Source of the DNA: Candidatus Cloacimonadota bacterium
GTDB taxonomy: Bacteria; Cloacimonadota; Cloacimonadia; Cloacimonadales; Cloacimonadaceae
Direction of reading: 5' to 3'
DNA: 62,157 nucleotides
Assembly: GCA_030154085.1 (NCBI GenBank)
Contig: JASKKR010000010.1
Coordinates: 1 to 62,157, forward strand
This document shows, in pieces, positions 1 to 56,497 of this stretch. Numbering within the stretch: the first letter of the stretch is position 1; each line of letters starts with the position of its first letter. The position numbers and the translations under genes are program-made. Below the pieces are notes generated by a model. That model had not been told where the DNA came from and made no database searches. It saw nothing but the letters and a program-made list of their open reading frames with translations.

Positions 1-28
1 AACTTGTCTACAATCACATCTTTGGTAA

Positions 29-139
29 TCACGATGTCATGCTTGCTCAATTGACGTTGGTATTTATGAATCCAAAGTCATGATCAGTACAGGCTATTAT
101 GACCAAAATTCCAGCCTGGCTAAGTATCTGCAAAAGTAG
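29..139 (+). pseudogene. possible 3' remnant of a coding sequence
   Basis: The open frame 29-139 ends in TAG and reads as a peptide that looks protein-like, including the stretch YESKVMISTGYYDQNSSLAK, loosely similar to the end of a BON-type domain. It cannot be extended leftward because a TAA lies at 26-28. A different frame (3-83) is open from the window edge and reads GNHDVMLAQ before a TGA. Together these could be a decayed or frameshifted gene end, or chance. No start codon or ribosome site is visible. Confidence 0.15.
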
Positions 140-140
140 G

Positions 141-222
141 GCATTTGCCGCCTCCCCCGTTTCTCTCCCCTTTGAGAAGTGAGCAAGAAACGGGAAAATA
201 AGGAGTTACAGCTTTGTGAAGT
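141..222 (-). repeat. intergenic hairpin repeat, copy 1
   Basis: Read on the minus strand this is ACTTCACA then AGCTGTAACTCCTTATTTTC, then an arm CCCGTTTCTTGC and the returning arm GAGAGAAACGGG followed by GGAGGC. The same block occurs three more times in the window on the plus strand. This copy has CCCG where the others have CTCG, turning a T-G wobble into a C-G pair, so the stem is kept. It lies downstream of the korB stop. Confidence 0.85.
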
Positions 223-468
223 CCGTATTTATGAAGTGCGTTATGAAGAGTAACTATTGATGGTAGCAACGTGCTTTTTGTTTATTAACTTATAAGTTGA
301 ATTCATAATCAGCATCTATCTTATCAAGAATTAGTTGGCATATATTTATGGACCATTACCTTATGCAACGATCTTCCCAATCTGAACTGCACTGATGGTA
401 AGCACTCAATAAAGCTTTTAATTATATTATAAGTAACTATACGTCAAGATGATATGTGTTATCGGATA

Positions 469-24725: not shown

Positions 24726-25256
24726 AATTATTCTCCTTTCAAGCTCACTGGCATTGATTAAAGGTTTATTTTGTACTATAATAAAATCCCTTACTTAATA
24801 GTCAAGCTTAAAAACACATCCAACTCAACCAAAAATCCCTATATGTACTATCTACATCGTTTTAAGAATATAGATTTTTTACTTTCTATCGTTATTAAAT
24901 TAATTAATTGCATACCTTGTTAAGCATCTCAGCTGCCATGATCTATTCCAATATGAACTTCACAAAGCTGTAACTCCTTATTTTCTCGTTTCTTGCCCTT
25001 TATCCAAATGGGCGTGAAATGAGGGAGGCATCCAGTGTGTTAGTTCCCAATAAGTTAGATAATTGATAGGAATGTGCTTATCTCCGCAACTTATATATTT
25101 AATTCTCGAGGTTGCATTAAAAGGCATAATTTCTTCATTACAATATTCTTTTGCTTTATTCTAAGCGTTACTACGCATAGATCAGGAAAAAATGGCTTGA
25201 CTTTTATCATAAGGAAATAATCCTTGTTAAAGAAGATTATTAACAGGAGTACACAT
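24726..25256. other. divergent intergenic region with hairpin repeat copy 2
   Basis: About 530 bases between the divergent pyrB and TPR lipoprotein genes. It contains repeat copy 2 in plus orientation. TTGACT at 25197-25202 could be a -35 box for the lipoprotein gene, but no matching -10 box stands out. The remainder is AT-rich without recognisable genes. Confidence 0.5.
24956..25038 (+). repeat. intergenic hairpin repeat, copy 2
   Basis: The block has CTTCACAA, then AGCTGTAACTCCTTATTTTC, then a hairpin. CTCGTTTC at 24985-24992 pairs with GAAATGAG at 25016-25023, and GCCC at 24995-24998 pairs with GGGC at 25010-25013. It ends GGAGGCATCCAGTG. The right arm differs from the other copies (GAAATGAG against GAAACGGG), yet pairing is kept by G-T wobble and new A-T pairing, which argues that the structure is what is conserved. 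Confidence 0.9.
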
Positions 25257-34632: not shown

Positions 34633-36630
34633 ATGGCTACGAAAACGAAAGAAAAAGGAGCTCTCAGTATCCATACTGAGAACATTTTCCCTATTATTAA
34701 AAAATGGCTCTATTCCCAGCACGATATTTTCCTGAGAGAATTGGTTTCAAACTCTGTAGATGCAATATCGAAACGCAAATATGCTGATGCTGATTTTAAG
34801 CAAGAAGATATGAAGATTGAGATCAAGCTTGATAAGTCCAAAAAGACCCTACAGGTAATTGATACAGGAATCGGTATGACTGCCGAAGAGATCAAAAAGT
34901 ACATTAACCAAATTGCCTTCTCTGGAGCAGAAGAGTTTGTAAACAAATTTAAAGATGTACAGGCCAATATCATCGGTCACTTTGGTTTGGGATTTTACTC
35001 ATCATTTATGGTGGCTGATAAGGTCACAATTGATTCACTTTCTATTGAGCCTGGAAGCAAAGCAGCCTACTGGGAATGCGACGGAAGTACTGAATACATT
35101 ATGAGCGAGGGTAAACGCAAAGAGGTTGGGACGACCGTCACGTTATACCTAAATGAAGATTCTAAGGAATATGCTGATGATAACAAAATCAAAGATATTC
35201 TTGAACGCTATTGTAATTTCATGCCTGTCCCTATCTATTTTGATTCCAAACAGGTCAATCAATTAGAGGCTCTTTGGAATCGGAATCCAAAAGATGTCAC
35301 AGAAGAAGAATATAAAAAGTTTTATAAAGAGGTTTTTCACGACTATAACGATCCAGTCTTTTGGATTCATTTAAATGTGGACTTCCCCTTCAACCTCAAA
35401 GGGATACTCTATTTCCCCAAGTTACGCAATGAACCAGAATTTTTCAAAGGCCAAGTAAAATTATATTGCAATAATGTCTTTGTTGCTGATAATCTTGAGG
35501 ATTTAATTCCAGAATTTCTATTACTTCTCAAAGGCGGCATAGATATTCCGGATATACCTCTGAATGTATCCAGAAGTTTTCTACAAAACGACACGCAAGT
35601 ACGCAAAATCTCGCAGTATATCATCAAAAAAGTCTCTGATCATTTCCAAAATACTTTCAAAGAAGATCGCAAGAAATATGAACAGTATTGGGAAGATATA
35701 AATACTTTCATCAAGTTCGGCATGCTTAAAGAAGATGATTTCTTTGAATCCATGAAAGATATCGCCATTTTCAAGACAGCAAGTGGCGATTATCTCACCA
35801 TAGATGAATATAAAAAACGTAATTCCGCTGCAGACGAAAAAAACACCAAGATTTGGTATGCTGCCAGCGAAGATACGCAAGTAAGCTATCTTAACCTGAT
35901 GAAAGAGCAAGGCATTGAAGTCATTTATCAGACTTCTCCACTTGATATTCATCTTTTCCAAAAGCTGGAATCCAAGTTGGAAAATACTGAATTTGTCCGA
36001 ATTGATAGTGAAGTCAACGAAACACTAGTGAGCACACAATCTGAAACTATCAATGATGAACAAAAATCACGACTCAAAAAGATCTTCTACAATGCGCTGG
36101 ATCAAAAGCTGGAAGCTTCTTTCAGCAAGGAAAGCTACAAAGACTTTCTCAAGAAATATCCAAACGCCAGTACAATCCTCAGTCCATATCAGATTCAACA
36201 AGACGATCAGATTTTGATAAACCTTCTAGACCTTCCTGAAAAAGTTGTAAAAGATTTGGGAAACGATGCCATGGTCGAGTTAGAAAACCATGCTTACACA
36301 GATATAAAGGTGGATCTTAAAAATCTAAAAACCCCAGAGATTCCCGGTATGATTGTCTTTAGCGAGTTTATGCGTCGCTGGCATGATATGGATATGATAT
36401 CCCGCATGGGAGCGGGTAGCGATATGCTAAAGAATCATAGCTTAGTAGTAAATACACAGAACCCAATAATCCACAAGATCCTTGAGCTGGATAAAAAGGG
36501 CAAAGATGAAGAAGTCAGGACACTATGTTCCTATATCCATGATCTTTCACTGCTTGAACAAAAACCATTTAGTGGACAAGAGCTCAAGGAATTCATAGGC
36601 AAAGCAAATAAAGTGCTATCATTTATCTAA
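34633..36630 (+). CDS. htpG: molecular chaperone HtpG (Hsp90)
   Basis: Bacterial Hsp90 of 665 residues. The N-terminal GHKL ATPase has the catalytic Glu/Asn helix FLRELVSNSVDAISKRK, the DTGIGM motif and GHFGLGFYSSFMV lid region; the middle and C-terminal dimerisation domains follow in normal order. AAGGAG lies about ten bases before the ATG. A CIRCE-like operator precedes it and a strong terminator follows, so it appears to be a single-gene heat-shock unit. Confidence 0.97.
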   Translation: MATKTKEKGALSIHTENIFPIIKKWLYSQHDIFLRELVSNSVDAISKRKYADADFKQEDMKIEIKLDKSKKTLQVIDTGIGMTAEEIKKYINQIAFSGAEEFVNKFKDVQANIIGHFGLGFYSSFMVADKVTIDSLSIEPGSKAAYWECDGSTEYIMSEGKRKEVGTTVTLYLNEDSKEYADDNKIKDILERYCNFMPVPIYFDSKQVNQLEALWNRNPKDVTEEEYKKFYKEVFHDYNDPVFWIHLNVDFPFNLKGILYFPKLRNEPEFFKGQVKLYCNNVFVADNLEDLIPEFLLLLKGGIDIPDIPLNVSRSFLQNDTQVRKISQYIIKKVSDHFQNTFKEDRKKYEQYWEDINTFIKFGMLKEDDFFESMKDIAIFKTASGDYLTIDEYKKRNSAADEKNTKIWYAASEDTQVSYLNLMKEQGIEVIYQTSPLDIHLFQKLESKLENTEFVRIDSEVNETLVSTQSETINDEQKSRLKKIFYNALDQKLEASFSKESYKDFLKKYPNASTILSPYQIQQDDQILINLLDLPEKVVKDLGNDAMVELENHAYTDIKVDLKNLKTPEIPGMIVFSEFMRRWHDMDMISRMGAGSDMLKNHSLVVNTQNPIIHKILELDKKGKDEEVRTLCSYIHDLSLLEQKPFSGQELKEFIGKANKVLSFI

Positions 36631-36684: not shown

Positions 36685-36854
36685 TTATGGGTATAGATTG
36701 AAGCCAAAAGTCATTCGTTAAACTTTATCATTCAGTTTGTTTGAGGTAGGTTTAGCAAGTGTCCAATAAATCATTGCTAATTTAAACTTTAAACTATATG
36801 CCATTTACAACGAATGTTATTTTAAATAGCCCCCAATAATGATTCTCAGAACGT

Positions 36855-36937
36855 ACTTCACAAAGCTGTAACTCCTTATTTTCTCGTTTCTTGCTCATTA
36901 CTCAAATGAGGGAGAAACGGGGGAGGCATCAAGTGTG
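36855..36937 (+). repeat. intergenic hairpin repeat, copy 3
   Basis: The best preserved copy. CTTCACAA and AGCTGTAACTCCTTATTTTC lead into a 17-position stem between 36883-36899 and 36905-36921 with one G-G mismatch, then GGAGGCATCAAGTG. It lies in a region between convergent genes, after the htpG terminator, so it is not placed as a promoter element. Confidence 0.9.
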
Positions 36938-37071
36938 ATACTTTTTCAAGCATTTAGCAAAGAGTAAATGAGAGCCCCTCCCAAGTAGTCAGCACCCGAA
37001 TAAATCTATAGTTATTGGTTGGATCCGGTAGCTGATAAAGATCTCGTATGTGTTTCTATATGTATAGTATA

Positions 37072-37134: not shown

Positions 37135-38007
37135 TTAGAGCAATTCTATTACGAGGAATTTCTGTTTACGGAAGTTCTCCGGATCTAAAACAGTCAAGAC
37201 GTATTCGTCGCCATCTCGTTCTACACTATAAGTAGTGGCAACATGATTGGATAGGATGCTATATCCCTTTCTGGTAGCGGGGAATCTTATTTCGAGTGTA
37301 TCAACAAGATTTATTTGATTAAACTTGTCCACTTCCAAATCTTTGGCGACAGTTGTCACTCTGCCTATGCCCAGGATTCCGCCTTTACGATCGATGATAC
37401 CCTGCTCCATAAGATTTTTTCGTGAGCCATAAACATAGTAGATATTATTTGCTTCCCGTTCAGCAGCTGTAAGCTCCGCTTCTTTCTGCATTATAGTTTG
37501 TTCACGTTCAGCAATTTCCATCTGACTAAGCCTACGCTCCTCTTCTAAAGTTTCATTTACGATTCCCAGACGATCCTGCAATTCTGCCATGATGGTCTCT
37601 TTTTCAGCGATTGATGCTTTAAGGCGATTTACAGTTTCTTGCACGCTGCGTAGTTGTGTACGAGAGCTTGCTAACTGAGCTTCGAGCTGAGAAATCTTCT
37701 TTTTATCAGCCTCGATCTGATCTCTCAAGTTGGCAATTGTCCCAATGAGGCGTTGCTGGCGCTCAGCGGGTGCCATGTCTGGAATTTCAGATTCTGTAAA
37801 TAGCTGTCCGGATAGGTCTTCATCGATCGCTTCTAGGCTTGCAGTGATTTCATCAATGGTCTGAGTTGTTGATTCGTAGAGAGTCTTTAGATCTTCGTTG
37901 GATTGCTGCAAAGCTTTATTTTCATTGGCTGCATTCATCCACACAATGCCAAAGACAATGGCCAGTATGGCCAAGACTATGATGATTATGATTTGGATAT
38001 TTTTCAT
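37135..38007 (-). CDS. membrane-anchored coiled-coil protein of unknown function
   Basis: I do not recognise a named family. The 290 residues comprise a membrane anchor (about 4-24, IQIIIIIVLAILAIVFGIVW), a long heptad-rich coiled coil (about 30-195, for example QLEAQLASSRTQLRSVQETV), and a C-terminal globular part of about 95 residues starting near NNIYYVYGSRKNLMEQGIID and ending in alternating strand-like segments. The coil and head should lie outside the membrane if the N-terminal helix is uncleaved. GGAG precedes the ATG, and it is a single-gene unit with its own terminator. Confidence 0.8.
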   Translation of the reverse strand: MKNIQIIIIIVLAILAIVFGIVWMNAANENKALQQSNEDLKTLYESTTQTIDEITASLEAIDEDLSGQLFTESEIPDMAPAERQQRLIGTIANLRDQIEADKKKISQLEAQLASSRTQLRSVQETVNRLKASIAEKETIMAELQDRLGIVNETLEEERRLSQMEIAEREQTIMQKEAELTAAEREANNIYYVYGSRKNLMEQGIIDRKGGILGIGRVTTVAKDLEVDKFNQINLVDTLEIRFPATRKGYSILSNHVATTYSVERDGDEYVLTVLDPENFRKQKFLVIELL

Positions 38008-55511: not shown

Positions 55512-55588
<77 letters not shown>

Positions 55589-56003
55589 GGTTAATTTTTT
55601 AGTTTTATCTTTGGGCTTGAGATTGAACTTTTCTCCCATTCTGTGATTAACTTATCTAACACATTATAAATGGTTATAATTGCTCCGTGCATATGGCATT
55701 AGATCGTAATATTGTCTCTAATATTTAAATTTATCTCGCTGATTGATGCCAAAATTGAGAAAAAATAACACCATTTGTTTATTCCTTTGCTTATGATAAG
55801 GCAACTTTTTTCCAGAGCTGTAACTCCTTATTTTCTCGTTTCTTGCACACTTGGTGAATGAGCGAGAAACGGGGAAGGCATCAAGTGGGCATATATTACA
55901 GAGATTTACAAAGTTGATTTTGCTAATTTGAAGACTGTTTTTGTTGAGGTTGGAGGTTGATGATCTAGCATTCTAATCTGCTTGATATTTGCATTAAATC
56001 TTA
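55589..56003. other. intergenic region with hairpin repeat copy 4
   Basis: About 415 bases between the tRNA and the minus-strand zinc-ribbon gene. It holds repeat copy 4 and T-rich sequence (AATTTTTTAG) just after the tRNA. No gene was recognised in the rest. Confidence 0.5.
55813..55888 (+). repeat. intergenic hairpin repeat, copy 4
   Basis: AGCTGTAACTCCTTATTTTC leads into CTCGTTTCTTGC (55835-55846), which pairs over all 12 positions with GCGAGAAACGGG (55862-55873), then GGAAGGCATCAAGTG. This copy has a shorter 5' match (CAGAGCTG in place of CAAAGCTG) and an unrelated loop, so only the stem and its flanks are conserved. Confidence 0.88.
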
Positions 56004-56261: not shown

Positions 56262-56497
56262 TGGTAGCCTCTTTTTCCGATTATTTTTAATATGACAAAG
56301 ACTGGCGTCTATCACTTAACTGTCAAGAGCTAATTGGCGCGACAATACCAAATATTGAATTGTTAATAACTAGCTAATATATGATATATCTTCTTGAATA
56401 TCATGTCATTGCAATGGAGATCTAAAATGTCATTTAGAACTGGGATCAACTCAAAAGCCTTGACACATTGCAGCAGAAAAAAAGCTTAGATTTAATT

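Follow-up and report, generated by a model that had tools for sequence, protein, structure and literature searches.

We have found that the genome of this Candidatus Cloacimonadota bacterium has a family of intergenic palindromic elements which are evenly spaced, with about one site per 13 kb. Four of them are in the window, which is the whole stretch of 62,157 nt that we have analysed. Related species have elements with a similar architecture and a different sequence, in many cases at the same gene ends. We give a probability of about 50% to the reading that these elements are DNA-level chromosome-organising sites, placed at the borders of segments of about 13 kb. The even spacing is our main finding; it was absent from an earlier note on this DNA, which described a four-copy hairpin repeat.

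The element and its even spacing

The four copies in the window are present where the earlier note had placed them, and all of them are intergenic, as it said. Its block of 75–85 bp was too short: the conserved unit has about 112 bp and goes from about −17 to +94 around AGCTGTAAC, as found in a column-by-column alignment of 91 genomic copies (CAGAACGCACTTCACAAAGCTGTAACTCCTTATTTTCYCGTTTCTTGCTCACTTCTCAAATGGGCGAGAAACGGGGGAGGCATCAAGTGCCCTACTTTTGCAAGCATTTAGC). Copy 1 (119..230) is on the minus strand and the other three are on the plus strand. Copy 2 (24949..25060) is in a divergent gap, between a carbamoyltransferase gene and a TPR gene. Copy 3 (36847..36958), which is the subject of the present finding, is flanked by convergent genes: an HSP90-like gene (34633-36630, plus strand) and a gene on the minus strand (37135-38007). 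Its sequence has an inner hairpin at 36883..36921 with the stem TCTCGTTTCT..AGAAACGGGG, and an outer stem with CTCC at 36872..36875 and GGAG at 36922..36925, all on the plus strand. Copy 4 (55799..55910) lies between a tRNA (55512-55585) and the gene at 56468. The inner stem of the element has about 9 bp in this genome; it is imperfect and its folding is modest. The note considered that loops and outer flanks were unrelated: throughout the family there is a usual loop, CACTTCTCAAAT; the flanks are indeed unrelated in general, except that some sub-groups have common extensions, such as TTAGCCAGGCTGGA. One copy, at G000:C20:7038-7165 (G000 is the genome of the window), differs from all others: its terminal inverted repeat, GTAACTCCTTATTTT..AAAATAAGGAGTTA, is complete, and it has a small second hairpin. 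It is possibly near an ancestral symmetrical form.

The genome has 1.95 Mb in 42 contigs. A search with the 19-mer of the 5' arm, AGCTGTAACTCCTTATTTT, with up to three mismatches, gives 48 + 50 = 98 matches, versus one for the reversed control. A covariance search of the whole genome had been suggested in the note, and it reveals many further copies: with a model built from 90 of them we obtain 116 matches at E<0.01. They are found in both orientations and are mostly intergenic; 15 of 97 copies overlap open reading frames, solely short ones (90–118 aa) which were called mechanically. Copies are also found within about 350 bp of contig borders: at the start of the window (1-230), at the start of contigs C1, C5, C7, C10, C15, C39 and C42, and at the end of C3, C9, C31 and C35. 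Breaks in the assembly appear to be caused by the repeat, and some gaps are therefore lost from the spacing count.

There are 83 gaps between neighbouring copies of the same contig, with a median of 13.0 kb, a range of 7.0–24.8 kb and a coefficient of variation (CV) of 0.28. In 20,000 simulations with uniform placement the mean CV was 0.89 and the lowest value 0.63. With a cut-off which, like the other neighbour distances, was chosen during the analysis, no gap is shorter than 6.5 kb; the same simulations give a mean of 32 such gaps and never fewer than 17. When placement is restricted to intergenic sites, at the density of the window, about 28 short gaps are expected, and the lowest of 5000 draws had 15. 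The weaker copies, detected only by the model, mostly landed in gaps which had previously a double size. The relative orientation of neighbours is random (++ 18, −− 24, +− 17, −+ 24). Visual inspection of the intergenic DNA around 11.0 and 19.2 kb, in the 24.8-kb gap of the window, showed no palindrome.

Elements in other Cloacimonadota and their positions

Related species were sampled as stretches of 20–400 kb, from genomes which are mostly metagenome-assembled. A plain DNA search of 39 relatives gave almost no matches and a single strong one, in G011. We have rejected this copy as evidence of conservation: the stretch (L126, from G011:C16) is identical at 100% over 3109 bp to G000:C38, which corresponds to a contig of one species in the bin of another. 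A recent species-specific insertion was also rejected as an explanation, since structure-based and sequence-blind searches revealed families with other sequences. They have a common plan: two arms of repeats of about 11 bp, palindromic, with a similar spacing.

G010 belongs to the same genus. A model search gave a diverged family, R2 (CGTAACTCGTTATTTACCCGTTGCTTGCACGG..GGACGGGGAAGGGACGGGG), with about 48 copies. When its stretches were read we found a second palindromic family, B (CCCCGTTTGCCTCCCTCGCAATGCCCTCGCCTCTACCC..), with a sequence unrelated to R2. In the contigs, which were selected for containing R2 copies, both families interleave on one lattice with gaps of 8.9–22.6 kb. Contig C108 has elements at 6.1 (B), 16.7 (R2), 30.3 (B) and 40.2 kb (R2); C58 has them at 0.9 (R2), 17.1 (B) and 32.1 kb (R2); in C127 they are found at 2.8, 13.4, 28.0, 38.4, 48.3 and 63.9 kb.

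G020 belongs to another genus and has a single contig of 2.25 Mb, of which 400 kb were scanned. The sequence-blind scan, based on an 11-bp period and a palindrome, gives 18 peaks, all of them within three families of elements. Other periods give 0–8 peaks and shuffled sequence gives none, at the same threshold, which was fixed during the analysis and not in advance. Three more sites belong to a fourth family, which is weaker. The scan also detected families in G003, G018, G013 and G014; in G031, of the same order, nothing credible was found in the 55 kb scanned. The covariance model of G000 has no match in G005, and we had thought that this species had no elements; this was rejected, since a weaker palindromic family, particular to G005, has 14 copies in 260 kb.

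Spacing is also regular in G010 (CV 0.28), G005 (0.15, gaps 11.6–18.0 kb) and G003 (0.19, gaps 7.4–12.7 kb), each with P<0.001 by simulation. It is less regular in G018 and G020 (P 0.04 by simulation): the latter has holes of 30–63 kb, yet no gap below 7.4 kb. The element of G000 is less palindromic and periodic than those of its relatives (Z about 9 vs 12–18), and that of G018 resembles more a direct-repeat array.

The positions of the elements are partly conserved. We compared the gene ends which adjoin elements in G000 with the orthologous gene ends of a relative. In G005, with a limit of 700 bp, an element is found at the same gene end in 8 of 16 cases; among the other gene ends the count is one in 102 (p=1.5e-7). 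The proportions in G010 are 8 of 17 versus 7 of 80 (p=5e-4), or about 7 of 12 when counted by sites. Both p-values are somewhat optimistic, because gene ends are not fully independent. Two of the eight coincident places of G010 have another family: its own in G000, B in G010. This agreement spans about 75% protein identity. The pilus gene pilC, which in G000 has a copy 236 bp downstream (G000:C37:17064), is another case. Out of 79 loci fetched, 25 were usable Cloacimonadota loci; counting peaks within 1.1 kb, eight of them have a strong palindromic peak downstream, and so do 5 of 336 background windows (p=1.7e-7); each of the eight has a different sequence.

Conserved places are only about half of the sites tested, and one site of G000 is cleanly empty in G005 (L099 vs L244). 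Part of the agreement could come from gaps which are tolerant of insertions. The genes flanking two elements of G000 adjoin a single element of G005 (L231 vs L065 and L090), which corresponds to a rearrangement breakpoint at the element.

A possible role in chromosome organisation

The direction of the neighbouring genes is immaterial. Among tandem genes, 16 elements are co-directional and 16 are opposed; 23 are in convergent and 14 in divergent gaps, with convergent gaps over-used with respect to the background. The statement of the earlier note that placement is not promoter-specific is thus borne out, since both kinds of gap are occupied. Because gene direction does not matter, we infer that the site works in DNA. 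Unrelated families which share one lattice, and places which are kept when the sequence is swapped, are hard to obtain by transposition alone and therefore favour an organising site: if one site is selected per segment, such a pattern of spacing and positions is easily obtained.

Chromosome-wide sites of this kind would delimit regular segments of the chromosome, either as markers of their borders or as the borders themselves. With repeats of about 11 bp, every helical turn would present a given contact on one side of the DNA, and a candidate self-associating DNA-binding protein might therefore line up along each arm; it would then hold sites together or block the diffusion of supercoils. The palindrome may, in addition, form an extruded cruciform and absorb supercoils. 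Selection for one border per segment would give the regular spacing, and species-specific sequences would come from co-evolution with the cognate protein and from copying between sites. A broader proposal, plausible but tentative, is that the Cloacimonadota of this family divide their chromosomes into units of about 13 kb by a conserved lattice of palindromic sites with an 11-bp period, in which positions persist and sequences are replaced in concert, co-evolving with a putative architectural protein. If true, it would be a bacterial chromosome ruler whose turnover resembles that of rapidly evolving centromere or hotspot systems. The presence of several families in one genome is awkward for a single sequence-specific protein; the holes of G020, the lower palindromicity and periodicity of the G000 element, the array-like form of the G018 one and the fact that only about half of the tested sites are conserved in position also count against an organising site.

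SbcD is a subunit of the nuclease which attacks long palindromes. It is below the cut-off in six of the seven genomes searched, which we count in favour of an organising site. The only clear match, at G010:C6:4646-5431, may reflect either a genuine difference of G010 or a contig which does not belong to it.

A non-autonomous mobile element is the alternative that survives best, and we consider it unlikely. The earlier note had suggested a REP/MITE-like element mobilised in trans; even spacing would then be due to immunity or exclusion, with new families inserted at or beside old ones. The palindromic form is appropriate, families are homogeneous within a species and different between species, there are sub-families with common flank extensions, and one pair of occupied and empty sites is found between G000 and G005. 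A MITE has terminal inverted repeats, a target-site duplication and a parent transposon; the consensus shows no clear inverted repeat at its −17/+94 borders, and the two sites of this pair are too diverged to show a duplication. Against a mobile element, the Y1/RAYT transposase (PF01797, the only one searched) has no match in G000 or G005; it was found in five of the seven genomes. Neither GTAG nor CGTC borders the consensus hairpin, which is preceded by GTAACTCC/TTATTTTC. Copies are single and never closer to one another than 7 kb: neither tandem arrangements nor clusters are found, and no target duplication was noted. Exclusion also operates between unrelated families, and positions are common to species with different element sequences, over the protein divergence given above.

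An improbable alternative is a passive topological device, in which cruciforms buffer supercoiling in each domain of about 13 kb; only self-complementarity and spacing would be selected, with no cognate protein. It agrees with the weak or absent SbcD and with a palindromicity which is kept while the sequence varies freely. The z values of DNA folding, −8 to −16 in four relatives' copies and −1.3 to −3.3 in the four window copies, are also given in its favour. Against it, the G000 element folds only modestly, its homogeneity within a species is left without explanation and the 11-bp repeats are unnecessary for a cruciform.

A structured small RNA, an mRNA 3'-end or a terminator element is very improbable. 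One co-varying stem pair (45/81 of alignment A1) is CG, TG or TA, never CA, in 90 copies, and consensus T.G pairs also occur in the G010 family. However, over all stem pairs C.A mismatches are as frequent as G.T (pair 35/84 has 23 C.A), so that folding of a single-stranded RNA is not supported; an RNA function deduced from the T.G wobble was rejected, as there is no consistent bias. The consensus has no T-run after GGAGGCATCAAGTG, as an intrinsic terminator would require, and an Rfam search gave no family at any element: only tRNAs and an Acido-Lenti-1 RNA are above the gathering score. The absence of a named element, anticipated in the note, thus holds for Rfam. Even spacing has no reason in an RNA gene. 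Random gene orientation and the lack of a RAYT transposase together argue against RNA, terminator and REP/RAYT readings. Out of the guesses of the note a nucleoid site is the one which fits best; small RNA and 3'-end processing, its companions, are disfavoured by the balanced orientation and by the presence of copies in both kinds of gap, convergent and divergent.

A DNA-uptake or recombination signal of competent species, present once per imported fragment and with species-specific dialects, is hardly credible: it would explain many copies of a species-specific sequence, and 13 kb is near the typical length of imported fragments, but the element greatly exceeds known uptake sequences in length and is far less frequent than they are, at least two unrelated families are found within one genome and places are retained despite the change of sequence.

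Comparison with known systems

BIMEs are mosaics of PU palindromes, with binding of gyrase and IHF. They share with our elements the presence of palindromic intergenic repeats, in hundreds of copies in E. coli; a BIME impedes the diffusion of supercoils, and they have been proposed as dividers of chromosome domains (review PMC6907758). The G000 element is larger (about 112 bp), single, non-mosaic and evenly spaced with an exclusion distance; Cloacimonadota elements also differ by their arms with an 11-bp period and by positions partly kept while the sequence is replaced. REPs with GTAG/CGTC tags and RAYT, and REPINs, are also short palindromic families with many copies, several per genome and variable among species (PMC3733652; see also PMC3116915). 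The elements of G000, which has no Y1 transposase, are similar in form and lack the defining features that we tested. We found no account of even spacing or of positional conservation across species in the papers that we consulted.

The matS sites of MatP, as well as those of SlmA and Noc, are dispersed palindromes, each kind being recognised by a single protein; in Ter there is on average one matS per 35 kb (PMC6907758). The sites of G000 are likewise dispersed, and evenly spaced; a cognate DNA-binding protein, which defines such organisers, is putative here. They differ from matS, of 13 bp and confined to Ter, by a large array which covers the whole assembly with a spacing of about 13 kb and a fast-changing sequence. 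Iteron arrays of the ParR/parC type have repeats of about 11 bp, one per helical turn, in a plasmid centromere present once per replicon. The length of the repeat is in common, whereas G000 has about 116 dispersed palindromic sites.

In the open-licence papers that we searched, no such system of Cloacimonadota and no evenly spaced palindromes of this kind are described. The borders of topological domains in E. coli are reported to be largely random, and their identity to be unsettled (PMC6907758). If our reading is true, borders would be fixed, even and marked by sequence, so that domain size and encoded borders would be directly testable. A position which is retained while its sequence is replaced is an unusual evolution for bacterial intergenic DNA, and it predicts a fast-evolving partner protein.

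Other repeats are also present in these genomes. G010 has perfect palindromes of about 80 bp near CTGTCTTGTCCCGTCAGGGACAG, with a low 11-bp periodicity and a MITE-like look (L260:2120-2546, L261:5660-5993 and L263:19074-19443); perfect palindromes of the CCCCAGCC type, also with low 11-bp periodicity, were set aside as another repeat. GAGGGGCTTACGC..CGCTAT..TGTGTCGCCC is a distinct repeat, frequent in the intergenic DNA of several Cloacimonadota (L210-L229 in G020, L230-L248 in G005), and in G005 it sometimes adjoins the palindromic elements. The Acido-Lenti-1 RNA (RF01687) is found at L269:12683-12737, about 0.4 kb from an element of G018.
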